In this document: in pieces, positions 2,174-29,369 of the stretch
Numbering within the stretch: the stretch's first letter is position 1
How the letters are laid out: every line of letters starts with the position of its first letter
Made by a program: the position numbers and the translations under genes
DNA from: Sphingobium yanoikuyae
GTDB lineage: Bacteria; Pseudomonadota; Alphaproteobacteria; Sphingomonadales; Sphingomonadaceae
Direction: 5' to 3'
DNA length: 29,882 nt
Assembly (NCBI RefSeq): GCF_034424525.1
Contig: NZ_CP139982.1
Location: 1-29,882, forward strand
Notes under the pieces: model-generated
What the model was told of the DNA's origin: nothing
The model's database searches: none
Seen by the model: the letters and a program-made list of their open reading frames with translations, nothing else

Positions 2174-2806
2174 TCATTCCTCCGGCTCGGCCTCGTCATC
2201 GTCCAGTGGCTCATGCTCCATCTGGCCGTGATCCTCGATCGGGCAAAGCGGCGCTCCGGCCTGCTCAAGCCATTTGCGCGCGGTCCTGACGGTATAGCCG
2301 CACGTCGCGCACTCGCATTTGAGCATCCGGGTTTTCTGCTTCTTCGGCGCGGTCGACGCTCCGTCCGTGTCGAGACGGGCATGGGGGAGGGGGCCAACAT
2401 CGGCGAGAATCGGCACGATGGCCGCAAGGAACGCTTCGCCGGGGGTGGTGGCGCGCATCGGCCCGACAAGACCAAGGCCAAGGGCGACCCGTTTAAACGC
2501 CTTCCCATGCCCTGCCGGGATGCCGACTGCGGCATGGACCAGCTCATGCGCGAGGATGGCCGCGATCTGCGCGGGCATGGCGTCGGGCGCGTGCGCCAGG
2601 TCGGGCCGGATGAAGATTTCAAAATGCCCGTCCGCGCTCAAGCGGTTGTCCCAGCACTCGCCGATCGCCTTGCCCTTCGCGCCTCTGCTGGTGAAGCCGA
2701 TCGCCACGCGCACGCGGTCGGGCAGGGGGGCGTCCAGCGCCTCGAACAGCGGAGCCATGCCCAGCGCCACGGCATTGAGCCAGCTTTCGCGGGTTTGGTG
2801 GGTCAT
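2174..2806 (-). CDS. SprT-like zinc metalloprotease domain protein
   Basis: Carries the zinc-metalloprotease signature HELVH (residues 87-91, from the chosen start) with a third candidate ligand His100 in PAGHGKAF, as in SprT/Spartan-like domains. A C-terminal Cys cluster (CECATCG, later LCP) looks like the zinc ribbon seen in this group. Such proteins act on DNA-protein crosslinks or have unknown roles on mobile elements, so its plasmid job is not established. The ATG at 2806 is chosen because GGGAGTAAGG precedes it; a TTG at 2824 would put the Shine-Dalgarno inside the gene. One copy of the CGTTTAAACG palindrome is in the coding region (AFKR codons). The last ~15 residues are very acidic. 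Confidence 0.8.
   Translation of the reverse strand: MTHQTRESWLNAVALGMAPLFEALDAPLPDRVRVAIGFTSRGAKGKAIGECWDNRLSADGHFEIFIRPDLAHAPDAMPAQIAAILAHELVHAAVGIPAGHGKAFKRVALGLGLVGPMRATTPGEAFLAAIVPILADVGPLPHARLDTDGASTAPKKQKTRMLKCECATCGYTVRTARKWLEQAGAPLCPIEDHGQMEHEPLDDDEAEPEE
2490..2499. repeat. CGTTTAAACG palindrome, site 1
   Basis: First of eight copies of this 10-bp perfect palindrome. Here it is inside the SprT-like gene, read as codons for Ala-Phe-Lys-Arg. Confidence 0.9.
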
Positions 2807-3181
2807 CGTCCTTACTCCCTTCAAATCGCCTGTCCGGCGATGGCCATGCCATCGGCCGGAACACGGACGCCCAAGAACGCCGGCGAGAGAGGGGGGCAGC
2901 GGGATTCGATGGGGGTGGTGCGGCCGCAGCGCAGCGAGGCACGGCCCCGTCTAATCCCGTTGCGGGGGAGAGGCGGCCGGGACCGCCTTTCCCCCCTTGA
3001 ACGAACATCGACGCCGGCGAACGCCGGCACCATGAAGCGAGATCCGCTTGCGATCTCGCCCCCGCCATGTGGGTCGTCACCTTGGGCCAAGACCGCTTGC
3101 GGGCTTGGGGAGCGAAGCGAGTAGGGCCACGGTGCCGCGACAGCGGCAGGCGCATGTCCCCGCCCGCATCTAAACCTAGCT
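2807..3181. other. Non-coding GC-rich stretch with hairpins
   Basis: I see no convincing gene here. It holds a strong hairpin (2964-2995: GGGGGAGAGGCGG pairing with CCGCCTTTCCCCC, one G-T pair). A segment beginning GAACATCGACGCCGGC and a GAGATC/GATCTC stem near 3040-3058 follow. This block recurs in diverged form at 4271-4352. Confidence 0.6.
2964..3060. repeat. Dispersed hairpin repeat, copy 1
   Basis: A GC-rich stem-loop followed by CGAACATCGACGCCGGC and a second small stem. The same order and much of the sequence recur at 4271-4352, suggesting a shared mobile or structural element. In this copy the tail has an extra GCCGGC-GAAC-GCCGGC hairpin. Confidence 0.55.
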
Positions 3182-3424
3182 CTATTCGGTGGGAGACTTC
3201 GCCTTTTCCCGGCGCTGCAACTCACTTTCCACCGTCTCGCGGATGAATTTCGCAATCATTTCGGTGGGTGGTTCCGCCTTCTCCCGGCGCTCCAATTCGC
3301 TCTCGATCGCCTCGCGGATGAATTTCGCGATCCTCTTCTTGCCAACCAGCATCTCAATGCGGCGCATCGTTTCGAGCGGTAGCCGGATCGTCGTCGGCTT
3401 CATTCCAAGAGGCGGTCGTCCCAT
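3182..3424 (-). CDS. RHH (CopG/Arc-like) DNA-binding protein with internal duplication
   Basis: 80-residue protein. The N-terminus (KPTTIRLPLETMRRIEMLVG, residues 9-28) fits the strand-helix start of an RHH regulator. After it, a 25-residue unit IAKFIREAIESELERREKA is repeated as IAKFIRETVESELQRREKA. In DNA this is a 75-bp direct tandem repeat (3185-3259 and 3260-3334), with the reading frame kept and the copies partly diverged. The second helix of the RHH fold plus an acidic/basic tail is therefore present twice. Upstream lies a cluster of GCGATAGC-type inverted sites (3475-3527), probably its own operator. It may be an orphan antitoxin-like regulator or a copy-control protein; no toxin gene adjoins it. 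Confidence 0.65.
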   Translation of the reverse strand: MGRPPLGMKPTTIRLPLETMRRIEMLVGKKRIAKFIREAIESELERREKAEPPTEMIAKFIRETVESELQRREKAKSPTE

Positions 3425-3430
3425 GCCCTG

Positions 3431-3527
3431 TCGCTATCGGGCAAGGTTTCGTTCTCCAAGGCAAACCCGTTGACGCTATCGCTTATTTGAGTATTAGCTA
3501 TCGTTTTACTGTATAAGCGATAGCTTA
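3431..3527. promoter_or_regulatory. Operator cluster with GCTATCG repeats
   Basis: GCTATCGCTTA (3475-3485), AGCTATCG (3496-3503) and the near-palindrome TAAGCGATAGCTTA (3514-3527), plus CGCTATCG near 3432, lie upstream of the RHH gene that starts at 3424. The AT-rich spacing suits a promoter. Inferred autoregulation; the same GCGATAGCG word also appears at 21476 and 27398. Confidence 0.45.
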
Positions 3528-3660
3528 AACGCCGTGGACATGGCTTGCCTGGCTTTCGGGCTGACGCTGCGACAGCGCGATTCGCGCGGGAGCTGGTTTA
3601 AAGCCGCGTCCGTTTGCCACTCCCGATTTGCCACCACGGATGCGGCATGGAGGCAAGTCT

Positions 3661-4227: not shown

Positions 4228-4261
4228 AACATGGCTGTGGGAAGTAAGCAGGCGGTCGTAA
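4073..4261 (+). CDS. Sigma-70 region 4-like HTH protein or fragment
   Basis: MPPIARETFVCNRVGGKNYAEIARSM followed by VRWRMLRAIQHIA has the spacing of region 4 of ECF-type sigma factors: a Pro-Pro-x-x-Arg turn, helix, G-x-x-Y-x-E-I-A turn, recognition helix. The open frame extends upstream to TTG 4016, and ILFETMPP before the ATG also looks family-like, so the start is unsure. It overlaps the nucleotidyltransferase-like frame by ~155 bases. No region 2 is seen, so it is a small HTH protein or the 3' remnant of a broken sigma gene. Confidence 0.4.
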   Translation: MPPIARETFVCNRVGGKNYAEIARSMRTFRWIVRWRMLRAIQHIARGPGCFETWLWEVSRRS

Positions 4262-4270
4262 TCTGCTGCT

Positions 4271-4352
4271 GGGGAAAGGCGGCCAGGATCGCCTTTCCCC
4301 TTCAACCGAACATCGACGCCGGCACATCGCTCGCGAAATCCTCGCAGCGATC
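4271..4352. repeat. Dispersed hairpin repeat, copy 2
   Basis: GGGGAAAGGCG (4271-4281) pairs with CGCCTTTCCCC (4290-4300) around an 8-base loop. The tail carries CGAACATCGACGCCGGC as in the copy at 2964-3060. It lies between the sigma-like fragment and the toxin-antitoxin promoter, where it may act as a terminator. Confidence 0.55.
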
Positions 4353-4389: not shown

Positions 4390-4409
4390 GTTTTCAGAAG
4401 GAAATCCCA

Positions 4410-6916: not shown

Positions 6917-7891
6917 CTAGATCAACACCCGCTCCACCTCGTCGAGCGTCACGTCATCGGGCCGCCGATCGTAGAGCTGGGTGGTGCGCGTTGAGCTGTG
7001 GTTCGCCATCGTCGCGGCCGTCTCCAAGGTGCCGCCGTTTTTCAGATAGGTGGTGATTCCGGTCGCGCGGAATGAATGGTTGCCGATCGCCGTGCCGATC
7101 CCGGCCGCCGCCGCGCGCCGACGCACCATCGCGAAAGCATTGGCTTGGGGCAGGGGGGTTTCGCTCAACTGCCCGGTGCCGCGCGCGATCGTGCGGAACA
7201 GCGGCCCCTTGCGATCCTCGCGCAAGCCGCACCCGTCGATATAGGCGGTCAGATAGTCCTCAAGATTGTGGTGGCAGGGCATTTCGTGGCGCTTGCCGCC
7301 CTTTTCGTGCAGGCGGACCCATAGCCGCCTGTTCTGCATGAACACGTCCTCGACCCGCATCGCCAGCGCCGCGCCGATCCGCGCGAACGAATAGACCATG
7401 AGGCCGATCAAGGCGCGGTCGCGCAGGCCGGCGTGGGTGGCAACGTCGATCGTATCGAGCAAGTGCCGCGCCTCGTCGGGCACCAGCACCGGCGTCTTGC
7501 CGCGCCGCTGGCTATAGGCCGGCCCGCGCACCGATGCGGCGGGGTTCGCCGGCACCACCTGACCCATTACCAGCCAATCGAACAGGCTCCGCACGCCGGC
7601 GAGCTGCTGCTTGACGCTGGGCGGGGCCAGCTCGCCCCCCTGCGCCTCGATCCAGGCCGCGACGTGGAGCGGCTGCACGCCGGCGAGCGAGGCGACGCCG
7701 CGTGCCTCACACCAGGCCAGGAACTCACCCGCCGCGCGCATATAAGCGCGGCGGGTATGCGGATTGCGGATGGTGACGGCGAAGAACTCAAGGAAGCGCA
7801 GCCGCGCCGCCTCGTCGGCCGACGCCACCAGCGCCGGCAACGCCAGCGCCGAAGAAGATGGGGGCGGGGGCAGGGGGGCCAGCTCGTTCAT
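6917..7891 (-). CDS. Tyrosine recombinase / integrase
   Basis: Site-specific recombinase with all catalytic positions visible: Arg171 (FARIGAAL), Lys197/200 (EKGGKRHEMP), His272 and Arg275 (HSFRATG), His298 (NHSSTRTTQ) and nucleophile Tyr307 (QLYDRR). Residues ~25-115 form the SAM-like core-binding domain (TRRAYMRAAGEFLAWCEARG). The ATG at 7891 overlaps the TGA of the upstream RHH gene (ATGA). On a plasmid of this size it may resolve multimers, as XerC-type enzymes do, or be the remnant of an integrated element. I found no paired attachment sites flanking it. Confidence 0.9.
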   Translation of the reverse strand: MNELAPLPPPPSSSALALPALVASADEAARLRFLEFFAVTIRNPHTRRAYMRAAGEFLAWCEARGVASLAGVQPLHVAAWIEAQGGELAPPSVKQQLAGVRSLFDWLVMGQVVPANPAASVRGPAYSQRRGKTPVLVPDEARHLLDTIDVATHAGLRDRALIGLMVYSFARIGAALAMRVEDVFMQNRRLWVRLHEKGGKRHEMPCHHNLEDYLTAYIDGCGLREDRKGPLFRTIARGTGQLSETPLPQANAFAMVRRRAAAAGIGTAIGNHSFRATGITTYLKNGGTLETAATMANHSSTRTTQLYDRRPDDVTLDEVERVLI

Positions 7892-8283
7892 CGCGCGATC
7901 TTCGCCCAACGCGCTGGCTCGGGGCGCGGCTCGGCCATTTTGCGGCGCAGCTCGTCAAACACTTCCTCGGCGGGGCGGACGCGGCCCGCCTTCACGTCCT
8001 CAAGGCCGCGCACAACCGACGCATCCAATATCCGGCGTAGCAGCTCGTCGCGCAAATCGCGGTGTGGCTCCATCTCGATGAAGTTCTTGACGATCGCGAA
8101 CACCGCCTCGGACGGATCGACGAAATGGCCCTGCTCGACCTGCGCCAACAGCCAATCGGCCATATCGCCGGGTAGATACGCCTCGAAGCGCAGGCCGCCC
8201 GTGCGGGCCTGCTCGCGCAGCGCCCTAGCCTGATCGCGCTCAGCATAGTTGTCGGCGAAAGCCGTGTCGTCATCCTTGTGCAT
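7888..8283 (-). CDS. ParD/RHH-like small protein upstream of the integrase
   Basis: 131 residues. FEAYLPGDMADWLLAQVEQGHFVDPSEAVFAIVKNFIE (about 33-69) resembles the RHH of ParD-type antitoxins (strand, helix, G-x-F/Y-x-x-x-S/P-E-x-V turn). The tail LEDVKAGRVRPAEEVFDELRRKM resembles the C-terminal segment of such antitoxins. No ParE toxin follows; the integrase does, by ATGA overlap, so it may be a regulator of the recombinase operon. ATG 8283 is preceded by GGAGGGA. Its upstream gap holds a CGTTTAAACG palindrome. Confidence 0.65.
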   Translation of the reverse strand: MHKDDDTAFADNYAERDQARALREQARTGGLRFEAYLPGDMADWLLAQVEQGHFVDPSEAVFAIVKNFIEMEPHRDLRDELLRRILDASVVRGLEDVKAGRVRPAEEVFDELRRKMAEPRPEPARWAKIAR

Positions 8284-8315
8284 CAAGGCTCCCTCCTAGC
8301 TGTGGATCTCCGGGC

Positions 8316-8325
8316 CGTTTAAACG
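8316..8325. repeat. CGTTTAAACG palindrome, site 2
   Basis: In the short gap between the end of the bactofilin-like gene and the start of the RHH gene of the integrase operon. Confidence 0.9.
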
Positions 8326-8710: not shown

Positions 8711-8755
8711 CATAGTTGGGCGCGTGAATCCCGCGCATAGGTGGAGTGGAACCGG

Positions 8756-9340
8756 ATGCTGGAAATCGAGCTGTCGAAGGATATAGAGGCGCGCCTTGCG
8801 AAGATTGCCGACGCGACGGGGCGAAGCCTCGCCGCCTGCGCGGCCGAGGCGATCGAACGCTATGTGGAATCGCCGTCGCCGCAGCGGATCACCTACGGCG
8901 AACGAATCATCGTCCATATGCTAGCCGATTGGGTCGATACGCTGGCGGGGGAGAAGGGTTTGGAAGCATTGCGGCAAACGCTCCCCCCGGCTCTTGTTTT
9001 GGCGGCCCTGGAAAGCGGCCGCGACCATGTGATAACCGAGCATATCGGGATTGGTGGCGAAGAGTTCCAGCACCCCGGCACCGCCTATCAGGCAATGTGG
9101 ATCATGCTCGACGATCTCGCCGATGCCCGCGAGCGCGGCTGCGATGTTCCCTTATTCAGCGGCATCAGCGATGATGAAGAGGCGGACGCGCTCGCGGATT
9201 TGGCGCAAGTCGCGCACTCTGCCTACAAGGGCAAGAACCAAGCCCGACACGTCGATTACTCTCTGCCCGAGCGGCCCCTCGCCTTTTGGCGGGAACTGGC
9301 GGAGCGATATTCGGACAGGCGGGCAGGGGAGGGCGTTTAA
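8756..9340 (+). CDS. RHH-type N-terminal DNA-binding protein, 194 aa
   Basis: The N-terminus MLEIELSKDIEARLAKIADATGRSLAACAAEAIERYVE is a standard strand-helix-helix RHH. The following ~150 residues (HMLADWVDTLAGEKGLEALRQTLP... HIGIGGEEFQHPGTAYQAMWIMLDDL) are not recognised. GGAG lies upstream of ATG 8756; an in-frame ATG at 8741 is less well placed. The neighbouring inverted repeat suggests autorepression. Its TAA (9338-9340) lies inside a CGTTTAAACG palindrome whose other strand supplies the TAA of the convergent gene. Confidence 0.6.
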   Translation: MLEIELSKDIEARLAKIADATGRSLAACAAEAIERYVESPSPQRITYGERIIVHMLADWVDTLAGEKGLEALRQTLPPALVLAALESGRDHVITEHIGIGGEEFQHPGTAYQAMWIMLDDLADARERGCDVPLFSGISDDEEADALADLAQVAHSAYKGKNQARHVDYSLPERPLAFWRELAERYSDRRAGEGV

Positions 9341-9343
9341 ACG
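9334..9343. repeat. CGTTTAAACG palindrome, site 3
   Basis: Supplies the TAA stop of two convergent genes at once (9338-9340 on plus, 9339-9337 on minus). Confidence 0.9.
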
Positions 9344-9693
9344 TCCTTGGTTGGCGGCGGCGCGTTGATTATCATTTCGACATAATCGAGATGTTCGCGG
9401 GCCTGGTCCGCCGTGATGCCAAGGCGCTGCGCGATTTGCTCAAACGTCATCTCGTATTTGTTATGAAGCTGAAAGACCCTCTGCGCGACATAGGACATCT
9501 GCCAGGTGAGTTCCGTTTCGTCGGCTGTCATCTTGGCCAATGGCGCGGGCATCGCGGCGTCGATCGCCTCTACAAGATGTTCCACCGATTTCGCGCTATT
9601 TCCATCGAGCGTCCGCAAGATCGCGAGGGCGCGTTCCATGTAATCGAGTGCGGTAGCGCGCGAAGCGGGCACGCCTGCGACATTCCCCGTCAT
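9337..9693 (-). CDS. Sigma-70 region 4-like HTH protein
   Basis: 118 residues. The C-terminal half AQRVFQLHNKYEMTFEQIAQRLGITADQAREHLDYVEMII has the helix-turn-helix pattern of sigma-factor region 4. The N-terminal half (ALDYMERALAILRTLDGN...) is helical and does not look like region 2, so this is probably a small regulator and not a full sigma factor. GGGAG precedes ATG 9693. It lies 31 bases downstream of the receiver-domain gene on the same strand in the order receiver then HTH, so a shared signalling role is possible but unproven. Confidence 0.6.
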   Translation of the reverse strand: MTGNVAGVPASRATALDYMERALAILRTLDGNSAKSVEHLVEAIDAAMPAPLAKMTADETELTWQMSYVAQRVFQLHNKYEMTFEQIAQRLGITADQAREHLDYVEMIINAPPPTKDV

Positions 9694-10194: not shown

Positions 10195-10605
10195 CTACCC
10201 TTTGTCCCTTCGATACTCCGCCACATCGCGCAAGGTTGCGGCCCAATAGGCGAGGGCCAGGCCCTCGTCCTCATTCTCGTTCTTGCTGACCGTGGCATAT
10301 ATGCCCAGCGCCTGCGCGAAATCGTCCGTGGTCGCGATGCCGCTCTTTTCCAGAAGCGCGCTCACAACCGCCAGCGCCCCGCCGATCGCCTTCACCAGCG
10401 CGGGATCGAGCGACGTCGCCCGCTCCTGCGCGCGCCGATCGGGATCGGCAGCATCATCGGCGCGCAAGGCAGTCAGGCGCGCGGCAATGTCATGCGCCTG
10501 TTGAAGATAGATCGCGGCGGCATCCTCTCCGGCGCGGTCGAGCAAATCGAGCGCCTCGGCCATCAACGCGACCGCGCGACCGCGCAGGGCGGTCTTGTCC
10601 GTCAT
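10195..10605 (-). CDS. Hypothetical helical protein, 136 aa
   Basis: Not recognised. It is Ala/Asp-rich and helical (AVALMAEALDLLDRAGEDAAAIYLQQAHDIAARL), with a C-terminal ALAYWAATLRDVAEYRRDKG. The ATG (10605-10603) overlaps the TGA of the diguanylate cyclase gene (ATGA), so the two are co-translated and it may modulate that enzyme. The N-terminal helical region loosely resembles a short plus-strand gene here (12779: LALAEKAMKLFDKVGQDIAATHCQAAIE), which suggests a shared small-protein family. Confidence 0.6.
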   Translation of the reverse strand: MTDKTALRGRAVALMAEALDLLDRAGEDAAAIYLQQAHDIAARLTALRADDAADPDRRAQERATSLDPALVKAIGGALAVVSALLEKSGIATTDDFAQALGIYATVSKNENEDEGLALAYWAATLRDVAEYRRDKG

Positions 10606-11513
10606 GCAGGCTGCTCGCGAAGCGGGCCGCTCGCCCGCTCGCGCCCGTCGCGCTGGGGCTGGTCCGCCCAAGTGATTTCACAGGCGTTCTTGCCGGCCCG
10701 CTTCGCCACGAACATCGCCTGATCGGCCGCGTGCATGAGCGCAGCCGGATCGCGCGGGACGTGCGGCGGAATGACTAGCGCGCCCATGCTGCACGTCACC
10801 GGATGCTCGCCCGCAGCCAGCACGGCCGACACACGCGAATGAAGCGTGCGCGCGAACATCTCGCCGGCGTCCGCTGGATGCACGCGGAGCAACACCGCGA
10901 ACTCGTCGCCACCGATCCGCCCGAAAGCATCCTCGCGCCTGATGCTGCCCGCCGCCCCGCGCGCAAAGGTCCGTAGCACGGCGTCGCCAGCGGCATGGCC
11001 GTGGGCGCTGTTGACGCCCTTGAAATCGTCAAGATCGAAGATCGCCAGCAACAGCGTCTCGCTGGCCCTGCTGGCGACGGTAAGCGCCTCTGAAAACCGC
11101 TCGTTGAACGTCTCGCCGTTCAGCGCGCCGGTCTTGCGGTCGCGCAGCGCGAGATGCCGTTGGCGGTCAAACGATCGGCGGAAGCTCACGATCATTGCGG
11201 CGACAAAGAGATAGGTCGCGACCCGCACGCTGGTTCGGACTACCAGCGAGGCCGAGACCCCGCCATCGTCCAGATGCGGAACGATGGCGAGGATCGCGGT
11301 AAGCAAAGCAACAAAATACGCAGCACGTTCGCCCAGCGCCCATGCGGCGGCGCATATGATCGGAATGTAGAGCGGAGCCAGGCCAGCGCCGGGATAGGCG
11401 TGGTTCGCCCATGAAAGGGCGGTGACGGCAACGAGGATCGCGAACCAGGCATGTTCGCGCGGCAGGGATTCCAGACGTTCGGCCAATCGACCGACAGGGA
11501 GATGACTGTTCAC
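10602..11513 (-). CDS. Membrane-bound GGDEF diguanylate cyclase
   Basis: Makes cyclic di-GMP from two GTP. GGDEF at residues 201-205 (FGRIGGDEFAVLL) is intact, with FDLDDFKGVN for metal and nucleotide binding; no RxxD inhibitory site is seen five residues before it (RREDAFGRI has no clear match). Four hydrophobic segments occupy about 22-36, 46-60, 64-80 and 97-111, like a small MASE/DUF4118-type membrane sensor. GTG 11513, preceded by GGGGTAGGAAG, is the favoured start; ATG 11543 and GTG 11549 in the same frame are alternatives. A plasmid-borne cyclase could shift host biofilm or motility behaviour. Confidence 0.85.
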   Translation of the reverse strand: MNSHLPVGRLAERLESLPREHAWFAILVAVTALSWANHAYPGAGLAPLYIPIICAAAWALGERAAYFVALLTAILAIVPHLDDGGVSASLVVRTSVRVATYLFVAAMIVSFRRSFDRQRHLALRDRKTGALNGETFNERFSEALTVASRASETLLLAIFDLDDFKGVNSAHGHAAGDAVLRTFARGAAGSIRREDAFGRIGGDEFAVLLRVHPADAGEMFARTLHSRVSAVLAAGEHPVTCSMGALVIPPHVPRDPAALMHAADQAMFVAKRAGKNACEITWADQPQRDGRERASGPLREQPA

Positions 11514-11578
11514 GCGCTTCCTACCCCTACCGCAAAGCTCCATCCACACTCGCCGGCGACGGCCGATCGGACAGCCGA

Positions 11579-11837: not shown

Positions 11838-11847
11838 CGTTTAAACG
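11838..11847. repeat. CGTTTAAACG palindrome, site 4
   Basis: Intergenic, between the structured block at 11579-11760 and the exonuclease operon. Confidence 0.9.
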
Positions 11848-11991: not shown

Positions 11992-12189
11992 ATGACAGAG
12001 GATGGGTTCTTGTGCGCGAAATTGCGCGACAATCTGCGCTTCTACGAGGATCGCGCGCGCCAGGAGCGGGCGGCGGCCGAGTCGACGAACAAGCCCGAAG
12101 CGGCATCCGCGCATCGGCTGCTGGCGATCCAGTATGAGGCCGACGCCCGCGAGCTGCGGGCGGAACTGGTGATGACGGGCGCACCGTGA
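11992..12189 (+). CDS. Small hypothetical protein, 65 aa
   Basis: Not recognised. MTEDGFLCAKLRDNLRFYEDRARQERAAAEST... is charged and helical, probably a coiled coil. ATG 11992 is chosen; a GTG three codons earlier is possible and neither has a strong Shine-Dalgarno. Its TGA is overlapped by the GTG of the exonuclease gene (GTGA), so it is the first gene of a three-gene coupled operon. Confidence 0.55.
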   Translation: MTEDGFLCAKLRDNLRFYEDRARQERAAAESTNKPEAASAHRLLAIQYEADARELRAELVMTGAP

Positions 12190-13950: not shown

Positions 13951-16900
13951 TTACCGGCTAAGGCCACGATCGCGGCCAATTCCAAGTTCGTGCGTCAACT
14001 GGTGGCCAAGGTCGCGCCCGCGCCCCATGCCCATCTCAAGCCCCAGCTCGCGCTCACGGCCGCGCAGGATCGATTCCACCTGGGGGTCACGCTCAAGGCT
14101 TTTCGCCATGCCCGCCATCTCCTTGCCCGCCTTCTCCCGGCCCGTCATGTCCCCGGCACGATAAAGCCGGTCGCGATCCTGGGAGAGCTGTTGCCAGCGT
14201 TCCACGAACCGATCGGCGCGCAAGTTCGGATCGGCCCGCACCTTGGCCTCATGCGCCATCGCATCCATCATCGGGCCGCTGCGCCCCGCCGCCGCCTCAT
14301 GGAGCAAGCCGGGTTCGCGCTGGAACGCCGATGCCATATCGCGCGAGGCCCCCGCCCTGATCTGGTCCAGCGCCTCGGTCGCGCGCTCGAGCGCGACCTT
14401 CTGATGCTCCAATACCGGCCCGCCCGACGCGCGGGCCTGCAACACCGCCTCGGCCGAACGCGAGGCCCGCTCGACCGCGCGCCGGAAATCATGGGTATGG
14501 CCCTGCTCGGCACGCGCCGGGGCTTCCTTCGCCGGCGTCGGCGTGCGCGACGACAGTTTCAGCCCATCGAACATGCCGCGCTTGGGGGCCGCCTTTTCCT
14601 TCGCGCCCTGCGCTGGCTCGGCCACCTTCGCCGGCTCGGCCGACAGCTTCAAGCCGTCGAACATGCCGCGCCGCGGCTGTCGCTCGGCCGCGGCCTTCGC
14701 ATCCCCTGCGCCGCGGCCGCTGGCTTCATGGGGGCCGATCTCGCGCGGGCGTGGATCTTCGCCCATCTGGCGCATGGTGCCAGCACGCGGGCCTAGAAGC
14801 TCCACGCCCTTGCGCTCGGGCGCATCCGGCAATCGGATCTCGCCCGACAGGCCGCGCCGATCGGCGAACGATTGCGCCTCGCCGTCGCGGTCCCGATACA
14901 TGGGATAATCCGACGCCATATCCTTCGTCCGCTCGCGCGACAGCGTGCGGACAAGCCGCCGATCGTCGGCGAAGTCGTCGCGGCCGTAATGGAGCTGGAC
15001 GCCCTCACGGTGCCGCGACAGCGCCACATAGGCCGCATGGCGGTCCATGCCGGGGGTGGCGAGGACATGCCCCTGATCGACCGTCACGCCCTGCGATTTG
15101 TGGATGGTCGCGGCATAGCCATGATCGACATGGGCATAATCTTTCAGGTCGAACGCGACCGATCGGCCATCGTCGAGGCGAACGGCCATGCTGTCGGGCG
15201 ACACGCGCTCGACCTTGCCCAGCGTGCCGTTCTTCACGCCTAGCCCTCGCTCGTTCTTGAGGAACATGATGCGGTCGCCGGTCGCGAACTCGCGCGCGCC
15301 CCGCTCGGCCGAAATCCGCACGTCCTGCCCCAGCTCGCCGGCGTCGCGCAGACGATCGCGCGCGGCCAGGTTCAGCTCGCGGACCTCGGCATTGGTGTGG
15401 GTGAGGATGATCCGCGTCTTGTCGGGATCGGCAAGCCGCTGTGCGTCCCATGTGTCGATCAGCTCGGCGCGGGCCGCCTCGCGCGTCTCGGCCGCGTGGA
15501 CCATGCCGTGATCGGCATAGGCATGGATCGCCTCGCCGGTCCTGCCCGTCGCCAGCGCCCGCGTGGCGTCCTTCTGCCAGTCCTCATGCTGCCGGCGAAC
15601 CTCGTTGATCTCGGCCGCGCCGTGGCGCTCGGCAAGGGACCGGAACGCAGCGCCGGCCTCGATCGCCTGCAACTGCTCCGCGTCGCCGACTAGAACGACC
15701 TTCGCGCCCGCCCTCTCGGCCTCGGACAATACGCGCTCCATCTGGCGCGTGCCGATCATGCCGGCCTCGTCGATCACCAGCACGTCGCGCGGGCCTAGTA
15801 GCTCGCGGCCCTGATCCCACTGATATTCCATGCTCGCGATCGTGCGCGACTGAATGCCGGAGCCGCCCTCCAAGCCCTCGGCCGCGATGCCGGACAGGGC
15901 CGCGCCGCGCACCTGATAGCCGGTGCGCTCCCATTCGTCGCGGGCGACTCCCAGCATGGCCGATTTGCCGGTGCCGGCATAGCCGACCACGATGGCAATA
16001 TCCTTCTCGCCGGTTATATGCGCCAGCGCGGCTTCCTGCTGGCTCCCCAGCTTAAGGCCCTCACTCCCGGCGGCATCAGCCCCCCTTGAAAGCGATGCCG
16101 TCGGGAGACCATGCCCCGCCTTGCCGGCAAGCCGATCGCCGGCGCGCTCCAACCGCTGCTCGATGTCGATCATGTCGCGGGAGGTAAAGCGGTCCTCGCC
16201 GCGCCCGTTCTTGCCCAGCGCCACCAGCTCGGGCGAGGTCCGCACCGCGCTCATCACCTGGTCGAACTGATCCTTGCCGTCGCTGTGGCGGAACGCGAAC
16301 TGCGCGAGGTCGCGCCGCGTGAACGTCGCCTGCTGGCGCGTGATCGCGTCCAATGCGATCTCGGGCCGCGCAATGATCTTCTCGCCATTCTCGCGCGCGA
16401 TCCGGGCATGATCTTCGACCCGTTCCGCCTCAAGCCCCTGTTCGGGCATACGCGATGCAGCCGGCCCGATCTTGTGTTGCGGCTCAAGGTCGATGCCCTG
16501 CGCCGCCAACGTGCGATGGTCGATCCGCGCGTCAATATCCAGCTCGGCAAGCCGCTGGTTCACATGGTCCGCCCACGCCTCGCGCCACTCCTTCAGGAGC
16601 GCCGTGCTGTTCCACTCGACAACCTTCTTGCCGAAGCCGTCCGGACTGATTTCGCGCATCGACAGCATGACATGGGCGTGCGGCTTGGGTTGCCCGTCCT
16701 TGCCCATGTCCCAATGCACATTGAGGTCGGCCACCATGCCGCGTTCGACGAACTGCTTTTCGACGAACTCGCGCGCGAGCTGGACGCCTTGCTGCTGGTT
16801 CAGCTCGCGCGGAATCGAGAACTCGACTTCGCGGGCAAGTTGTGCGTCCTTGCGCTTCTCGCCGGCCTCCACCTCGTTCCACAAGGTCGCGCGATCGTTT

Positions 16901-17088
16901 AAACGCTCCGGCGCACCTTCGGGCAGCATGATTTCCGAATGGACGACACCGGCCTTGTTCGAGAAATCATGGTCGCGCCCGAGTCGGTCATCGTGCAGCC
17001 GTTCCGCTGCGCGATAGGCCGCGCTGGCAACGGCGCTCGATCCACTGGAGCGGCCGATGACTTTCGCGGAGAAATGATAGATCGCCAT
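13951..17088 (-). CDS. traA: TraA relaxase-helicase (MobQ / Ti-type)
   Basis: Nicks oriT, stays bound to the strand and unwinds it for transfer. Residues 1-~190 are a MobA/MobL relaxase: Tyr25 in SAAYRAAERL is the candidate nucleophile, and His125 with His137-x-His139 (KPHAHVML) forms the metal triad. Residues ~345-720 are a RecD/TraI-like helicase with GYAGTGKSA (369-377) and VLVIDEAGM (436-443), followed by YAATIHKSQGVTVDQ. The C-terminal ~280 residues are charged and hold a twice-repeated RGMFDGLKLS segment. ATG 17088 (MAIYHFSAKVI) matches the family start, 30 bases from the candidate oriT. A CGTTTAAACG site is in the coding region (ERLND codons). Confidence 0.92.
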   Translation of the reverse strand: MAIYHFSAKVIGRSSGSSAVASAAYRAAERLHDDRLGRDHDFSNKAGVVHSEIMLPEGAPERLNDRATLWNEVEAGEKRKDAQLAREVEFSIPRELNQQQGVQLAREFVEKQFVERGMVADLNVHWDMGKDGQPKPHAHVMLSMREISPDGFGKKVVEWNSTALLKEWREAWADHVNQRLAELDIDARIDHRTLAAQGIDLEPQHKIGPAASRMPEQGLEAERVEDHARIARENGEKIIARPEIALDAITRQQATFTRRDLAQFAFRHSDGKDQFDQVMSAVRTSPELVALGKNGRGEDRFTSRDMIDIEQRLERAGDRLAGKAGHGLPTASLSRGADAAGSEGLKLGSQQEAALAHITGEKDIAIVVGYAGTGKSAMLGVARDEWERTGYQVRGAALSGIAAEGLEGGSGIQSRTIASMEYQWDQGRELLGPRDVLVIDEAGMIGTRQMERVLSEAERAGAKVVLVGDAEQLQAIEAGAAFRSLAERHGAAEINEVRRQHEDWQKDATRALATGRTGEAIHAYADHGMVHAAETREAARAELIDTWDAQRLADPDKTRIILTHTNAEVRELNLAARDRLRDAGELGQDVRISAERGAREFATGDRIMFLKNERGLGVKNGTLGKVERVSPDSMAVRLDDGRSVAFDLKDYAHVDHGYAATIHKSQGVTVDQGHVLATPGMDRHAAYVALSRHREGVQLHYGRDDFADDRRLVRTLSRERTKDMASDYPMYRDRDGEAQSFADRRGLSGEIRLPDAPERKGVELLGPRAGTMRQMGEDPRPREIGPHEASGRGAGDAKAAAERQPRRGMFDGLKLSAEPAKVAEPAQGAKEKAAPKRGMFDGLKLSSRTPTPAKEAPARAEQGHTHDFRRAVERASRSAEAVLQARASGGPVLEHQKVALERATEALDQIRAGASRDMASAFQREPGLLHEAAAGRSGPMMDAMAHEAKVRADPNLRADRFVERWQQLSQDRDRLYRAGDMTGREKAGKEMAGMAKSLERDPQVESILRGRERELGLEMGMGRGRDLGHQLTHELGIGRDRGLSR
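16896..16905. repeat. CGTTTAAACG palindrome, site 5
   Basis: Inside traA, in a different reading phase from site 1 (Glu-Arg-Leu-Asn-Asp), using the rare TTA leucine codon. Confidence 0.9.
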
Positions 17089-19310: not shown

Positions 19311-19312
19311 CG

Positions 19313-20974
19313 ATGGAATGGTTCCGCCAGCTCGGCCGCGCGCTCCGCAACCTCGCCCGTCTAGCGCGCGAGCAACCGATATGGGCGATCACGGCGCTGA
19401 CCCTCAGCCCGCTCGCGCTCATCCGCCATCTGTTTCGCACCGCGATCCTGTTCCTGATCGTCGGCATCGTCCTGGCCGGCGGGATGCAATTCGTCCTGCG
19501 TTCGCTGCTCGGCCTGGCCCGCGATTCCAATCTCTACCAGCTCGGCATGATGCTGACGTTCCTCGTCATCATTCTCGTCACGCTGCGCGCCCTCTTCCAA
19601 CCGCTGATCCTGCGTTATGGCGGCCCTGCCGGCGACGACACCCACGGCTCGGCCCGCTTCGCCACCGATCGCGAGACGCGCCCCCTCGCCCAAAATGGCG
19701 ACGGCCTGCTGATCGGCCGCGACCGCAAATCGGGCAAGCCGCTGCGCTATGCCGGCCCCGCCCATCTCCTGACGATCGCGCCGACACGCACCGGCAAGGG
19801 CGTGGGCACCATCATCCCCAATCTGCTCGACTATCCCGGCCCGGTCGTCTGTATCGACCCCAAGGGCGAGAACGCCCGTATCACCGCCCACTATCGCGCC
19901 AGGTTCGGCCCGGTCCATGTCCTCGATCCCTTCGGCGTCACCCGCATGGTCGGGGCCGCGTTCAATCCATTGGATCGTATCGACCCTGCCGGCCTCGATC
20001 TCGCCGACGACTGCATGACGCTGGCCGACGCGCTGGTCTATGACGCCCCCGGCGAAGCTGGCGAGGCGCATTGGAACGAGGAAGCCAAGGCGTTGATCGC
20101 CGGCCTGATCCTGCATATCGTCACCAGCGAGCCGGCGGGCACACGGACCCTTGCCACGCTGCGCGACCGGCTCACCCTCGCCCCGCAAGCCTTCGCCGCC
20201 CAGCTCGAAGCGATGCAGGCGCAAGGCGGCCTCGCCGCCCGCGCCGCAAACCGCCACCTCGGCAAGTCCGATCGCGAAGCTGCCGGCGTGCTATCGGCCG
20301 CGCAGCGCCATACCCATTTTCTCGATAGCCCGCGCATGTCGGCCGTGCTGGGGCGCTCGGATTTCACCTTCGCCGATGTGAAGGCGCGGCCCACGACCGT
20401 CTATCTGGTGCTGCCGCCCGATCGGCTCGCCACCTATGCCCGCTGGCTGCGCCTGATGCTGGCGCAAGGTCTGACCGATCTCGCGCGCGCCCCGGCCTCC
20501 CCTGCCCGCCCGGTGCTGTTCCTGCTCGATGAATTTGCCGCGCTCGGCCGTCTCGAACCCGTCGAGCGCGCGATGGGGCTGATGGCGGGCTACGGCATCC
20601 AGCTCTGGCCGATCCTGCAAGACGTTCACCAGCTCCGCGCGCTCTACGATCGCCGCGCCGGCACCTTCCTGTCGAACGCCGGCGTGCTGCAAGTGTTCGG
20701 CGTCAACGATCACGACAGCGCCAAGCTCGTCTCCGACCTGCTCGGCCAGGAAACGGTCGTGTTCGAGACCATGAGCCGCGCGATCGACAGCGACGAAACC
20801 GGCATATCGTTCGGATCGCAGCATGTCGGCCGCCCCCTGCTCACGCCCGATGAGGTCCGCACGCTACGCGAGGATTTGCAATTGCTGTTCCTCGCGGGGC
20901 AACGGCCGATCGTCGCCGCCAAGCTCAAATATTTCGCCGATCGTGAGTTCGCGGGGAAGTTCGACAAGGTGTAG
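19313..20974 (+). CDS. traG: VirD4/TraG-type coupling protein
   Basis: Hexameric ATPase that hands the relaxosome to a type IV secretion channel. Two transmembrane segments lie at about 40-60 and 78-97. Walker A is APTRTGKGVG (156-165), followed by IPNLLDYPGPVVCIDPKGEN. Walker B is PVLFLLDEFAALG (400-412). Length 553 fits VirD4-type proteins. GGGAGGGAA precedes ATG 19313. The gene is intact, although its 3' part (from codon 322) is repeated downstream and broken by a transposon. No VirB genes are present, so a helper T4SS is needed. Confidence 0.93.
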   Translation: MEWFRQLGRALRNLARLAREQPIWAITALTLSPLALIRHLFRTAILFLIVGIVLAGGMQFVLRSLLGLARDSNLYQLGMMLTFLVIILVTLRALFQPLILRYGGPAGDDTHGSARFATDRETRPLAQNGDGLLIGRDRKSGKPLRYAGPAHLLTIAPTRTGKGVGTIIPNLLDYPGPVVCIDPKGENARITAHYRARFGPVHVLDPFGVTRMVGAAFNPLDRIDPAGLDLADDCMTLADALVYDAPGEAGEAHWNEEAKALIAGLILHIVTSEPAGTRTLATLRDRLTLAPQAFAAQLEAMQAQGGLAARAANRHLGKSDREAAGVLSAAQRHTHFLDSPRMSAVLGRSDFTFADVKARPTTVYLVLPPDRLATYARWLRLMLAQGLTDLARAPASPARPVLFLLDEFAALGRLEPVERAMGLMAGYGIQLWPILQDVHQLRALYDRRAGTFLSNAGVLQVFGVNDHDSAKLVSDLLGQETVVFETMSRAIDSDETGISFGSQHVGRPLLTPDEVRTLREDLQLLFLAGQRPIVAAKLKYFADREFAGKFDKV

Positions 20975-20976
20975 AG

Positions 20977-20986
20977 CGTTTAAACG
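20977..20986. repeat. CGTTTAAACG palindrome, site 6
   Basis: Just after the traG stop. Here the symmetry extends to 18 bp, AGAGCGTTTAAACGCTCT (20973-20990). It is part of the duplicated segment. Confidence 0.9.
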
Positions 20987-21011
20987 CTCTCAAACACAAG
21001 GTATTTCGACC

Positions 21012-21473
21012 ATGCCAAATGAACGATTTGAGGAATTTGCCGATCGTTTCATGAAGAGCATCGGCGAGCCAGACTGTGACCTACAAGCATTGGTCGATGA
21101 GCTGATAGAACTGCACGCTGTCGAGCGCGACGAATTTAACCGCGTCCGCCTGATAAGTATGCACATCGCGTTGACCAACATCGCCGCCGAAGGGTTGGCC
21201 AAGGCACAAGTTCCAGGCTCTCAGATCATCGGCTTTCTGGCCGATAACCTTTCGACTTACCATCTCATGCTCCGCCAGGAGAGTTTGGTTGACGGGCAGA
21301 TCGACAAGGCCGTGCTTTTGCGCGTGACCGAACGCGAAATCACCGCTGGCCGCATGAAGGGCAACGATCCGCTCCGAGCATTTGCCGAAGGCGGCGAATA
21401 TGTTCGCGACAATCCGATGGAGGGCCTTTTTCACGCTGATCCATCGGCCGACGATAAACCAGTCCTGAATTAA
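21012..21473 (+). CDS. Hypothetical protein, 153 aa (copy 1)
   Basis: Not recognised. MPNERFEEFADRFMKSIGEPDCDLQALVDELIELHAVERDEFNRVRL is helical; the middle (ALTNIAAEGLAKAQVPGSQIIGFLADNLSTYHLMLRQ) is a longer hydrophobic helix pair, still soluble-looking. AT content is above its neighbours. ATG 21012 is in the position after the palindrome; a weak ACAAGG-type ribosome site lies upstream. It is likely transcribed with traG, and an identical second copy is at 26934. Confidence 0.6.
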   Translation: MPNERFEEFADRFMKSIGEPDCDLQALVDELIELHAVERDEFNRVRLISMHIALTNIAAEGLAKAQVPGSQIIGFLADNLSTYHLMLRQESLVDGQIDKAVLLRVTEREITAGRMKGNDPLRAFAEGGEYVRDNPMEGLFHADPSADDKPVLN

Positions 21474-21507
21474 AGCGATAGCGCCGACGCGCCACAAGGG
21501 CGCGAAT

Positions 21508-21529
21508 GTATAGGCGTATACAAATATAC
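21508..21529. promoter_or_regulatory. GTATA partition-type site, distal copy 1
   Basis: GTATAGGCGTATACAAATATAC lies far from the par genes; its first 13 bases are identical to those of the sites at 1104 and 1438 and it ends in the same TATAC. The same site recurs at 27430 because of the duplication. Confidence 0.5.
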
Positions 21530-21596
21530 AGGGTCGCCGCCTGTTCGGCCTTGGCGTTGTTTAGCGGACTTTCCGCGCCCTCCCCTGCCGGCTCTT

Positions 21597-21914
21597 AGCT
21601 GCCGGCGTGCTATCGGCCGCGCAGCGCCATACCCATTTTCTCGATAGCCCGCGCATGTCGGCCGTGCTGGGGCGCTCGGATTTCACCTTCGCCGATGTGA
21701 AGGCGCGGCCCACGACCGTCTATCTGGTGCTGCCGCCCGATCGGCTCGCCACCTATGCCCGCTGGCTGCGCCTGATGCTGGCGCAAGGTCTGACCGATCT
21801 CGCGCGCGCCCCGGCCTCCCCTGCCCGCCCGGTGCTGTTCCTGCTCGATGAATTTGCCGCGCTCGGCCGTCTCGAACCCGTCGAGCGCGCGATGGGGCTG
21901 ATGGCGGGCTACGG
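21597..21914 (+). pseudogene. traG fragment (duplication copy 2, left part)
   Basis: Repeats codons 322 to about 427 of traG, up to the transposon insertion at TACGG. It has no start of its own and no function is expected; an internal ATG open frame (from 21607) is only a remnant. Confidence 0.9.
21910..21914. repeat. Target site duplication TACGG, left
   Basis: TACGG also occurs at 26513-26517 right after the transposon. In the intact copy it is present once at 20591-20595, proving that insertion duplicated it. Confidence 0.95.
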
Positions 21915-26402: not shown

Positions 26403-26474
26403 GGCGGCACCACATAAAAGGGGCAGGAAAGCCTGCGAATAGCATCTGCTGGCATCGTACCGGATTTGTTCGCC

Positions 26475-26512
26475 CTTAGCGTGCAGATACGTCACTTTCG
26501 TGTAGTCACCCC
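26475..26512 (-). repeat. Terminal inverted repeat, right
   Basis: Complement begins GGGGTGACTACACGAAAG and ends CTAAG, the canonical inner end of Tn3-family repeats. It is followed directly by the TACGG duplication. Confidence 0.92.
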
Positions 26513-26517
26513 TACGG
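26513..26517. repeat. Target site duplication TACGG, right
   Basis: Second copy of TACGG. After it, the traG segment resumes at CATCC exactly as in copy 1 (20596). Confidence 0.95.
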
Positions 26518-26896
26518 CATCCAGCTCTGGCCGATCCTGCAAGACGTTCACCAGCTCCGCGCGCTCTACGATCGCCGCGCCGGCACCTTCCTGTCGAACG
26601 CCGGCGTGCTGCAAGTGTTCGGCGTCAACGATCACGACAGCGCCAAGCTCGTCTCCGACCTGCTCGGCCAGGAAACGGTCGTGTTCGAGACCATGAGCCG
26701 CGCGATCGACAGCGACGAAACCGGCATATCGTTCGGATCGCAGCATGTCGGCCGCCCCCTGCTCACGCCCGATGAGGTCCGCACGCTACGCGAGGATTTG
26801 CAATTGCTGTTCCTCGCGGGGCAACGGCCGATCGTCGCCGCCAAGCTCAAATATTTCGCCGATCGTGAGTTCGCGGGGAAGTTCGACAAGGTGTAG
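26518..26896 (+). pseudogene. traG fragment (duplication copy 2, right part)
   Basis: Repeats traG from codon ~428 to its stop (20596-20974), cut off from the left part by the transposon. No start signals of its own; not expected to make coupling protein. Confidence 0.9.
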
Positions 26897-26898
26897 AG

Positions 26899-26908
26899 CG
26901 TTTAAACG
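26899..26908. repeat. CGTTTAAACG palindrome, site 7
   Basis: Duplicate of the site at 20977, with the same 18-bp extended symmetry. Confidence 0.9.
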
Positions 26909-26933
26909 CTCTCAAACACAAGGTATTTCGACC

Positions 26934-27395
26934 ATGCCAAATGAACGATTTGAGGAATTTGCCGATCGTTTCATGAAGAGCATCGGCGAGCCAGACTGTG
27001 ACCTACAAGCATTGGTCGATGAGCTGATAGAACTGCACGCTGTCGAGCGCGACGAATTTAACCGCGTCCGCCTGATAAGTATGCACATCGCGTTGACCAA
27101 CATCGCCGCCGAAGGGTTGGCCAAGGCACAAGTTCCAGGCTCTCAGATCATCGGCTTTCTGGCCGATAACCTTTCGACTTACCATCTCATGCTCCGCCAG
27201 GAGAGTTTGGTTGACGGGCAGATCGACAAGGCCGTGCTTTTGCGCGTGACCGAACGCGAAATCACCGCTGGCCGCATGAAGGGCAACGATCCGCTCCGAG
27301 CATTTGCCGAAGGCGGCGAATATGTTCGCGACAATCCGATGGAGGGCCTTTTTCACGCTGATCCATCGGCCGACGATAAACCAGTCCTGAATTAA
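26934..27395 (+). CDS. Hypothetical protein, 153 aa (copy 2)
   Basis: Identical to the gene at 21012 as far as I compared. It now lies behind the transposon and a traG fragment, so it depends on a promoter within the duplicated segment or on read-through from the transposon's dehydrogenase transcript. A second dose of this product is possible. Confidence 0.6.
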   Translation: MPNERFEEFADRFMKSIGEPDCDLQALVDELIELHAVERDEFNRVRLISMHIALTNIAAEGLAKAQVPGSQIIGFLADNLSTYHLMLRQESLVDGQIDKAVLLRVTEREITAGRMKGNDPLRAFAEGGEYVRDNPMEGLFHADPSADDKPVLN

Positions 27396-27429
27396 AGCGA
27401 TAGCGCCGACGCGCCACAAGGGCGCGAAT

Positions 27430-27451
27430 GTATAGGCGTATACAAATATAC
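27430..27451. promoter_or_regulatory. GTATA partition-type site, distal copy 2
   Basis: Duplicate of 21508-21529, giving the plasmid two extra par-type sites outside the par locus. Confidence 0.5.
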
Positions 27452-27596
27452 AGGGTCGCCGCCTGTTCGGCCTTGGCGTTGTTTAGCGGACTTTCCGCGC
27501 CCTCCCCTGCCGGCTCTTAGACCCCATGACTGCCAGAGCCTCGGAGGCTCGAATCTGAGATGCTGATGATGGATTTGTCAGCAGCGGAGACGAGTC

Positions 27597-28712
27597 ATGA
27601 CGGAGACGGTGAAATACGTTGGTCTGGACGTTCATAAGGAAACCATTGCGGTCGCGGTTGCCGATGGGGAACGCGGAGGCGAGGTGCGTTTCGTCGGCAC
27701 GGTCGCCAACGAGGACGATGCGATCAGGAAGCTGGTCAAGCGGCTGACTGGACCGGGCGTGACGTTGAACGTCTGCTACGAAGCTGGTCCCTGCGGGTAT
27801 GGCTTGCATCGGCTGCTGACGAAGCTGGGACAGAATTGCATCGTCATCGCCCCCTCGATGATGCCGCGGCGCCCGGGTGACCATGTAAAGACGGACCGGC
27901 GTGACGCGATGACCCTGGCGCGGCTGCTACGCGCTGGCGAACTCACCGCAATCTGGATACCGGACGAAGCGCACGAGGCGGTACGCGATCTCATCCGCGC
28001 GCGACGCAGCGCGCAAGATGATGCCATCGGAGCCAAGCAGACAGTGCGCAGCTTCCTGTTGCGTCATGATCGTCGTTTCGGCGGCAAGGCGGCCTGGACG
28101 AAAATGTACTGGCGGTGGTTGTCCGAGCAGCGGTTCGATTTTCCCCACCAACAGCTGGCATTCGAGGAAATGCAGAAGCGGGTGCTGGAGGCGCAGGCAC
28201 GGGTTGGGCGCTTAGAAGCGGCGCTGACTGAAGCGGTGGACGCATGGTGTTTTGCGCCGCTGGTCCGCAATCTACAGGTCCTGCGCGGTATCAGGCTGGT
28301 CAGCGCTGCGACGCTGGTCGCTGAAGTAGGCGATCTCACCCGCTTCGACAATCCCAAGCAACTGATGGCGTATGTCGGCTTGGTGCCGTCCGAGCACTCC
28401 AGCGGCGCTCGGACCAAACGGGGCCGGATCACCCGCGCGGGCAACGCGCAGGCACGAACCATGCTGATTGAGGCGGGCTGGTCGTATCGACTGCCCGCTC
28501 GCGAGGAACGACGCTACCGTGAGCGGGTCATCGACTTGTCCGAGGACATCCAGGCGATCGGGTGGAAAGCGCAGGTTCGCCTGTGCCAGCGCTACCGTCG
28601 CCTGGCGGCCACGGGCAAGCCTCAGCCCAAGGTGACCACCGCGATCGCGCGTGAACTGGTCGGCTATGCCTGGGACATCGCCCGTCGGGTGTCGCCGGCG
28701 ATAGCCGGCTGA
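27597..28712 (+). CDS. IS110-family transposase (DEDD recombinase)
   Basis: 371 residues. The N-terminal RuvC-like domain shows Asp11 (VGLDVHKET), Glu62 (CYEAGPCGYG) and Asp100/Asp103 (VKTDRRDA), the DEDD set. The C-terminal Tnp20 domain has VLRGIRLVSAATLVAEVGD and YVGLVPSEHSSGARTKRGRITRAGN, with a candidate serine in SEHSSG. These enzymes are guided by a bridge RNA encoded at one end of the element. ATG 27597 follows GAGACGAGTC. Frame intact. Confidence 0.93.
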   Translation: MTETVKYVGLDVHKETIAVAVADGERGGEVRFVGTVANEDDAIRKLVKRLTGPGVTLNVCYEAGPCGYGLHRLLTKLGQNCIVIAPSMMPRRPGDHVKTDRRDAMTLARLLRAGELTAIWIPDEAHEAVRDLIRARRSAQDDAIGAKQTVRSFLLRHDRRFGGKAAWTKMYWRWLSEQRFDFPHQQLAFEEMQKRVLEAQARVGRLEAALTEAVDAWCFAPLVRNLQVLRGIRLVSAATLVAEVGDLTRFDNPKQLMAYVGLVPSEHSSGARTKRGRITRAGNAQARTMLIEAGWSYRLPAREERRYRERVIDLSEDIQAIGWKAQVRLCQRYRRLAATGKPQPKVTTAIARELVGYAWDIARRVSPAIAG

Positions 28713-28915
28713 TCCACCCACGACATTAACGAGAGGAGGCGCCAGCGCACCAACTGCATAGCCTTGGCCGGCGTGCCGCGGGCACCCGACTGTGATGGGC
28801 AATCCACGGTGTACGGTGGGGCAGGTTCGTCCGACGCCCGAACTTAGACGGAGGATAGGCCCAGCGACGGATACGGGTAGTGCGGTAATCAACCCGCGGA
28901 TGAGAGCATGATCAA
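28713..28915 (+). ncRNA. Candidate bridge RNA region of the IS110-type element
   Basis: About 200 non-coding bases follow the transposase, against only ~76 before it. In IS1111-like members of the family the bridge RNA is encoded downstream; in the IS110 group it is upstream. The segment contains short complementary stretches (GCCGGCGTGCCGCGGGC and others), but I did not derive a fold. Confidence 0.3.
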
Positions 28916-28925
28916 TCGTCGTCGA

Positions 28926-29349
28926 TCAGGCGCCCGCGGCACACCCGCCAAGGTCAATGCGACCGCTGGTCTCGAGGCCAGCGAAGGAGTAAACTCGGCC
29001 AGCGTCTCGGATGGCAGTCATGAGAGCGTAGGATTCCGCCCTCTCCTGCAACGATGTTCGGGCCAGGTCCGCGAAATCGTTGTCTAGCGCACAAACCTTG
29101 AAGCTCGCCGGGCCGATCGTGCGAGGATCTAGCACCCAAAAAATCGGCCGCCTGGGAAGCCCGCAGAGCGGCATGGGGCGCTCGACCTCTCCAACCTGCC
29201 GAACGTCCAGAATGACGCCCAGCGGCCCGGAAATCGCCCCTGCCGCGACGTTTCCGCCTTCCCTGCCCTCTCGGCTCGATCGCTGCCCTATCCGCTTGGC
29301 TTTTCTGGAAAGCCAATTGCGACGGTGCCGCTGGCGCTGTGGTTGCCAT
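28926..29349 (-). pseudogene. Hypothetical minus-strand gene, possibly frameshifted
   Basis: The C-terminal ~100 codons (SGPLGVILDVRQVGEVERP, then FADLARTSLQERAESYALMTAIRDAGRVYSFAGLE) read like a protein and end in TGA at 28926. The best N-terminus, ATG 29349 with ATTAPAAPSQLAFQKSQADRAAIEPR, is in another frame; the two would join near 29260-29280. A TTG-initiated frame from 29378 also reaches the stop. No family recognised. The IS110 element may have cut off its promoter or end context. Confidence 0.35.
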
Positions 29350-29359
29350 AGAGGCGCAG

Positions 29360-29369
29360 CGTTTAAACG
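29360..29369. repeat. CGTTTAAACG palindrome, site 8
   Basis: At the 5' side of the uncertain minus-strand gene and just before the hairpin array that leads to the origin. Confidence 0.9.

Follow-up and report, generated by a model that had tools for sequence, protein, structure and literature searches.

The window analysed here, 29,882 bp long, is the entire contig C4 (NZ_CP139982.1) of the Sphingobium yanoikuyae genome G000 (GCF_034424525.1), a circular plasmid carrying replication, transfer and integration genes. Dispersed over it is a 10-bp palindrome, CGTTTAAACG, whose distribution, conservation and possible role are the subject of this analysis. As in the original prediction, eight exact copies are found (Table 1), while copies with one mismatch number zero in the window. 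An order-1 model predicts 0.011 exact copies of the 10-mer, and eight matches were reached in none of 100 dinucleotide shuffles (mean 0.42 with up to one mismatch allowed). Eight of the nine TTTAAA hexamers in the window belong to the motif. The copies at 20977 and 26899 both lie inside an exact duplication of 1,009 bp (20590-21598 = 26512-27520) and consequently only seven copies are independent, as had been proposed; the extension of the 20977 copy to an 18-bp palindrome, AGAGCGTTTAAACGCTCT, is likewise borne out. The GC content, previously put near 62%, was measured at 64.0%. It might be thought that nothing beyond composition, codon usage or shared ancestry is needed to account for the copies, since orthologous copies are inherited and TTTAAA, rare as it is, does occur in the chromosome (3 in 400 kb sampled). 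Set against this are seven independent copies for 0.011 expected, a conserved rare codon and a flank signature (both described below), and we regard this explanation as close to negligible.

Table 1. Copies of the palindrome (S1 to S7) and associated genes in the window
Feature	Position	Strand	Context
S1	2490..2499		inside sprT-like gene 2174-2824(-), frame A-F-K-R
S2	8316..8325		29 bp upstream of copG/ParD-like gene 7888-8286(-)
S3	9334..9343		overlaps TAA stops of convergent genes 8741-9340(+) and 9337-9693(-)
S4	11838..11847		between GGDEF gene 10602-11549(-) and exonuclease-like gene 12186-12782(+)
S5	16896..16905		inside traA 13951-17145(-), codons Arg81-Leu82(TTA)-Asn83-Asp84
S6	20977..20986		2 nt past traG stop (19313-20974, +); centre of 18-bp palindrome
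S6 copy	26899..26908		in 1,009-bp duplication 26512-27520
S7	29360..29369		about 513 bp upstream of repA (1-1104, +), the plasmid being circular
SprT-like gene	2174..2824	-	Pfam SprT-like below cut-off; C-terminal Cys-rich part, zinc-ribbon-like by eye
copG/ParD-like gene	7888..8286	-	precedes tyrosine recombinase 6917-7909(-)
Tyrosine recombinase	6917..7909	-	Phage_integrase PF00589

The genome of the strain contains 14 copies of CGTTTAAACG, eight on the plasmid, four on C5 (20,030 bp) and two on C2 (236,891 bp). The 5.16-Mb chromosome C1 holds none; the original prediction had named an equal frequency in host chromosomes as the outcome that would tell against it. Chance alone gives merely 0.09-0.78 copies on that chromosome, so the zero is no proof of avoidance. 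The degenerate form SSTTTAAASS was seen there once where 5.4-11.1 were expected, and GTTTAAAC once for 5.3 expected; the chromosomal deficit is mild at most. At least one copy occurs in 35 of 61 genomes of the genus, where the copies, among the matches listed, are mostly clustered on small contigs, and in 80 of 196 genomes of the order. Thirty loci were drawn from 40 genomes picked for having a match. Plasmid genes are hit by 12 of them; the other 18 have no such hit and exhibit no translated likeness to one another. L170, which belongs to the 12, is situated on a 3.2-Mb contig, where the site is followed by a copG relative beside integrase-like and conjugation-type open reading frames (ORFs), as judged by eye. 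Seventeen similar sphingomonad plasmids or segments (L007-L023), picked by shared backbone among 50 records listed out of 297 that matched, all carry at least one site (17/17). Relatives from Hyphomicrobiales and Acetobacteraceae plus pDC06 (L200-L205) carry none (0/6). Among the plasmids examined, the site is restricted to this sphingomonad plasmid lineage.

Within the lineage the sites are found at orthologous places, which answers the earlier question of whether their position is conserved between related plasmids. Recurrent places are inside sprT, inside traA, at the traG stop, upstream of repA, upstream of copG, after a gene for a helix-turn-helix (HTH) protein and inside the DUF6118 gene; the counterpart of S4 in pUT1, for example, is placed after an HTH gene. 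There is turnover as well, with extra places elsewhere, in the DUF6118 gene, at a WGR stop and, all three new, on the 73.6-kb contig G034:C4. The flanks of S3 occur in the window only, among the flank-typed loci, and in L021 every one of three kinds of site is doubled. Plasmid pPDL2 has five sites despite lacking TraA, TraD, TraG and DUF6118, and its counterpart of S7 (19254) falls within the oriV-repA mini-replicon fragment 18,815-20,914 published for that plasmid (PMC3516476).

Selection had been proposed to act on the DNA and not on the protein, and the reading of the site as A-F-K-R in sprT and R-L-N-D in traA agrees with this; the codon signal that goes with it is strong in traA, less so in sprT. 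A TraA-alignment scan retained 80 of 365 loci. Of 102 clustered TraA ORFs, 100 were readable by pattern. The exact site is intact in 70 of these 100 genes, all 70 of which encode RLNDR, and that Asn is retained in only seven of the 30 site-less genes. The codon alignment of traA comprises 85 genes, 56 of which carry the motif, and 726 codon columns. In it, 69 of the 85 rows have TTA for the leucine of the site versus 0.65% TTA elsewhere, so that this column ranks first of all 726, and the CGT arginine codon ranks ninth. Mapped on a TraA tree with 84 rows, of which 55 have the site and 29 lack it (one row dropped), presence of the site requires 15 state changes versus a shuffled mean of 24.2. 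The site in traA is under codon-level selection. The corresponding sprT alignment comprises 27 rows, 25 with the motif, and 181 columns; the phenylalanine is TTT in 26 of 26 versus 24% elsewhere (rank 15) and the alanine codon ranks 98, a signal that is modest when taken alone.

The conserved sequence extends beyond the 10-bp core. Among 30 flank-type pairs from plasmid sites, pyrimidines occupy positions +2, +3 and +4 in 55, 52 and 55 of 60 half-sites, compared with 20, 16 and 24 of 44 half-sites for 22 sites classed as chromosomal, a class assigned by hand mainly from missing plasmid-gene matches. The site accordingly spans about 18 bp with the approximate consensus RRRN-CGTTTAAACG-NYYY. Such a symmetric flank signature is the symmetry expected of a dimeric reader, and in this indirect manner it favours the earlier suggestion of a binding site. 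The ribbon-helix-helix (RHH) and XRE proteins then put forward as readers find no support, both families being missing from many site-bearing plasmids. A palindrome that is short and placed regardless of genes might be a mark used in DNA modification, restriction or defence instead of an operator; however, the 18-bp flank preference seems longer than usual for such enzymes, and we consider this alternative very improbable.

Taken together, these features suggest that some protein probably reads the site. The explanation we favour, to which we give an even chance, is a dispersed plasmid-wide site of the operator or organiser type for a candidate sequence-specific dimeric protein. Under this model, a dimeric DNA-binding protein would recognise a palindrome of approximately 18 bp with CGTTTAAACG as its core, and selection would keep several copies per plasmid in the sphingomonad MOBQ/RepA-type family. 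Rather than serving one promoter, the network of sites would resemble the KorA/KorB operators and coordinate or insulate the modules for replication, transfer and integration. Its reader could be a trans-acting protein of the host or of a co-resident plasmid, or else the plasmid's SprT-like zinc-ribbon protein. Dispersed palindromes for which number and spread outweigh exact position are found in the matS, Noc and SlmA-type systems, but those are chromosomal while the present site is on plasmids. The KorA operator network resembles the present one in having several dispersed sites per plasmid. According to the part of the literature consulted, KorA and KorB of the IncP-1 plasmid RK2 also read short palindromes dispersed over the backbone as dimeric global regulators, the KorA consensus is the 12-bp GTTTAGCTAAAC, and a GTTTA half-site is common to both systems (PMC4889941). 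The site described here differs in its 10-bp core without a central GC, which is not of the GTTTAGCTAAAC type, and in its location inside coding sequences.

A KORA-family reader was looked for and rejected: searched with PF16509, the strain's own genome gave 10 weak matches, none over the cut-off, and weak ones also occur in 13 of 14 control genomes. The possibility of a second partition site, raised originally, is made unlikely by the presence of at least three partition RHH types with differing DNA upstream of parA (by eye) alongside one unchanged site. A parS or centromere role was dismissed on similar grounds, given that the site does not change with the partition proteins and that the sites are dispersed. 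Short TATAC-like or ACATG-like repeats, varying by partition type, are visible by eye upstream of parA (window 2060-2110; L008, L009, L013, L021) and are perhaps the true centromeres.

To seek the reader, 37 gene families were tested over 29 plasmids or segments, 23 with sites and six without, some of them incomplete. ParA, of several types with 26-100% identity, is the sole family present in 23 of 23 site-bearing replicons, yet it is also present in all six site-less ones. The four-site contig G034:C4 carries TraA, DUF6118, the family h366 and weak relatives of SprT, ParA and the HTH protein, and lacks TraD, the partition RHH and copG. When every frame of at least 35 amino acids from three plasmids was compared with the 14 plasmids having at least three sites, the sprT and parA regions were found, among the top rows, in 14 of 14 (L021 by an sprT remnant). 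The SprT-like protein, as the tested plasmid family that accompanies multi-site plasmids, was consequently made a candidate reader. A full-length SprT of the window type is encoded by 15 of the 23 site-bearing plasmids and by 13 of the 14 with at least three sites; the exception, L021, retains a remnant of 31% only. Sites outside sprT number one to seven in plasmids with full-length sprT and one to six in those without, tending to be more frequent in the former (Mann-Whitney p 0.014, the rows being related and not independent), and the six such sites of L021 are three doubled ones. Site-less L201 and L203 encode SprT-like proteins of another type. The sprT-like gene is also broken or reduced to a remnant in several plasmids (L010, L012, L020, L021), mostly ones with few sites. 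Across 99 loci, many of them truncated, a comparison of ORF families against intactness of the traA site revealed no useful association, the best (p 0.002) being an ORF that overlaps S7 itself.

Another candidate is the copG/ParD-like protein of the copG-int-pgm module, which could bind the site, autoregulate and act plasmid-wide through the other copies. S2 indeed lies some 30-40 bp upstream of copG in the displayed loci having S2, including L184 (a 3.2-Mb contig with conjugation-type ORFs by eye). The module next to S2 in the window is the same as that of pPDL2, in whose description CopG sites are predicted upstream of copG and attP is placed at the 3' end of int1, a relative of the tyrosine recombinase of the window (PMC3516476). 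However, copG is present without a site upstream in L021, L025 and pUT1, and in the first two the upstream region contains another inverted repeat, GTGTGATAA-N6-TTATCACAC, a better candidate for a copG operator than CGTTTAAACG. Conversely, copG is missing from the site-bearing L009, L013, L022 and G034:C4. No record from Sphingomonas MM-1, whose pISP3 has three sites, is among the 60 copG-bearing plasmid records listed out of 62, and six relatives with copG at approximately 46-51% identity have no site. Occurring without the site, and being missing where the site occurs, copG was discarded as a general reader, and we judge this explanation very unlikely.

The main rival to an operator or organiser is that the palindrome is a recombination joint, with replication, transfer and accessory modules swapped by crossover in the site, whether through a site-specific recombinase or because a bound site breaks and is repaired by short homology, much as in the pdif modules of Acinetobacter. 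Both flanks were typed for 166 unique sites among the 241 found. The flank at the traG end (F5) is combined with seven partner types and the copG-side flank (F4) with five, and the combinations include a closed cycle, F5-F8-F13-F17-F5. On the side that differs, likeness stops at the edge of the site, with a median of 0 bp and 35 of 38 partner pairs at 6 bp or less; the three exceptions reach 55, 11 and 10 bp, and unrelated control flanks have a median of 0 and a mean of 0.63. The same TraG end and site precede RepA2, Rep3, a 37% RepA relative or accessory genes. The strain's own C5, organised as TraG-[site]-NTase-MFS-[site]-Rep3 (nucleotidyltransferase; major facilitator superfamily), and L051, organised as TraG-[site]-Rep3, form one pair of occupied and empty arrangements. 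The MFS stop codon lies within the site in C5 and, by match coordinates, in L022, where an MFS gene 84% identical is arranged as MFS-[site]-RepA2. Identity steps along sprT peak at column 320, adjoining the site at 325.

Other results argue against a joint. The sprT step at column 320 stems from the conserved left side, and the partner types overcount independence, since on the Rep3 side F17, F18 and F25 look related by eye, and 55 bp are alike between F12 and F71. Flanks are constant at the traA site in 55 of 55 unique copies and at the sprT site in 30 of 30. Distance correlations at the in-gene sites (0.66 for sprT, 0.59 for traA) are within the range found elsewhere in those genes, and the traA site ranks 25th of 274 for identity steps. 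Among 213 sprT pairs with a supported breakpoint in single-breakpoint fits, one places it 0 to 20 bp from the site and 155 place it at +220 to +260. On neither side of the site does sprT track the partition type, which indicates that the other end of the replicon swap is not at a site. The insert in L015 lies about 10 bp away from the site, and the apparent fusion points of pDE4 and pPDL2 are away from sites (by eye, from annotation). No tyrosine recombinase is common to all 23 site-bearing plasmids tested, and a spacerless site of 10 bp is small by the standard of known recombinases, which we also count against this rival. Overall we regard it as possible, on balance doubtful.

A further reading is a hitherto undescribed module-shuffling system of sphingomonad plasmids, in which plasmids sharing a cell would exchange replicons, transfer ends and accessory genes precisely at an 18-bp palindromic, protein-bound joint, with DNA-level selection keeping the sites even in the relaxase and SprT-like genes; we think this scheme unlikely. 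Acinetobacter pdif is a 28-bp XerC-spacer-XerD site, unlike the symmetric 10-18 bp palindrome found here, which is also present in sprT and traA without signs of exchange. The possible likeness is that, in the part of the pdif/dif work consulted, short sites border exchangeable modules on small plasmids and plasmid pairs differ by one module (PMC13141974). In the strain's own C5, the accessory ORF behind traG (L144:9360-9950) would start M-K-S-F-K-R with the site coding residues 3-6 or so, and this start may be joint-made.

Several observations weigh against an operator or organiser read by a dimeric protein. The exact placement of several sites at module junctions is unpredicted by a pure operator model, and no consistent placing of the sites relative to genes was seen. 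Thirty of the 100 TraA genes are without the site, which can therefore be lost, and neither the Asp (rank 295) nor the Asn (rank 390) of the traA site stands out among the 726 columns. Plasmid pDC06 has no site although co-resident plasmids of its host do. As CGTTTAAACG is absent from the chromosome of the strain, no operator would be visible there for the gene of a reader encoded on the chromosome. Lastly, L011, L017, L018 and L088 retain the traA site without a usable sprT, and together with the doubled sites of L021 this speaks against SprT as the sole reader.

The site is nonetheless real and conserved. A DNA signal that fixes a rare codon in a relaxase gene, across unrelated replicons and partition systems, points to a factor on which sphingomonad plasmids depend. 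The pollutant-degradation genes lin, opd and cehA are annotated on several site-bearing plasmids; a shared control or exchange site would consequently bear on the spread of these pathways. Searches of the literature on the motif and on palindromes with sphingomonad plasmids, judged by title or the start of the abstract and with most subscription journals outside their reach, revealed no description of the network. In the main text of the pPDL2 report (PMC3516476) the string GTTTAAAC is absent, and a repeated motif is unmentioned in the parts examined. One paper, seen in part, uses CGTTTAAACG as a PmeI linker.

The duplicated segment of the window is a direct repeat made up of the traG end, S6 and the next ORF, and between its arms lie Tn3-like transposase, resolvase-like and short-chain dehydrogenase/reductase (SDR)-like ORFs, the Tn3 and SDR names being taken from similarity matches. 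Rfam and tRNA scans of the window returned no matches. The chromosome of the strain encodes a TraA relative with 68% identity (G000:C1:182623-184854), perhaps part of an integrated relative. A plasmid backbone with three intact sites is found at 200-240 kb of the 4.1-Mb contig G034:C1 (L133-L134), suggesting recent integration. Finally, the conjugal-transfer TraD gene at L009:10728-10937 is tagged as vanR resistance by PLSDB at 100% identity, apparently a false call.

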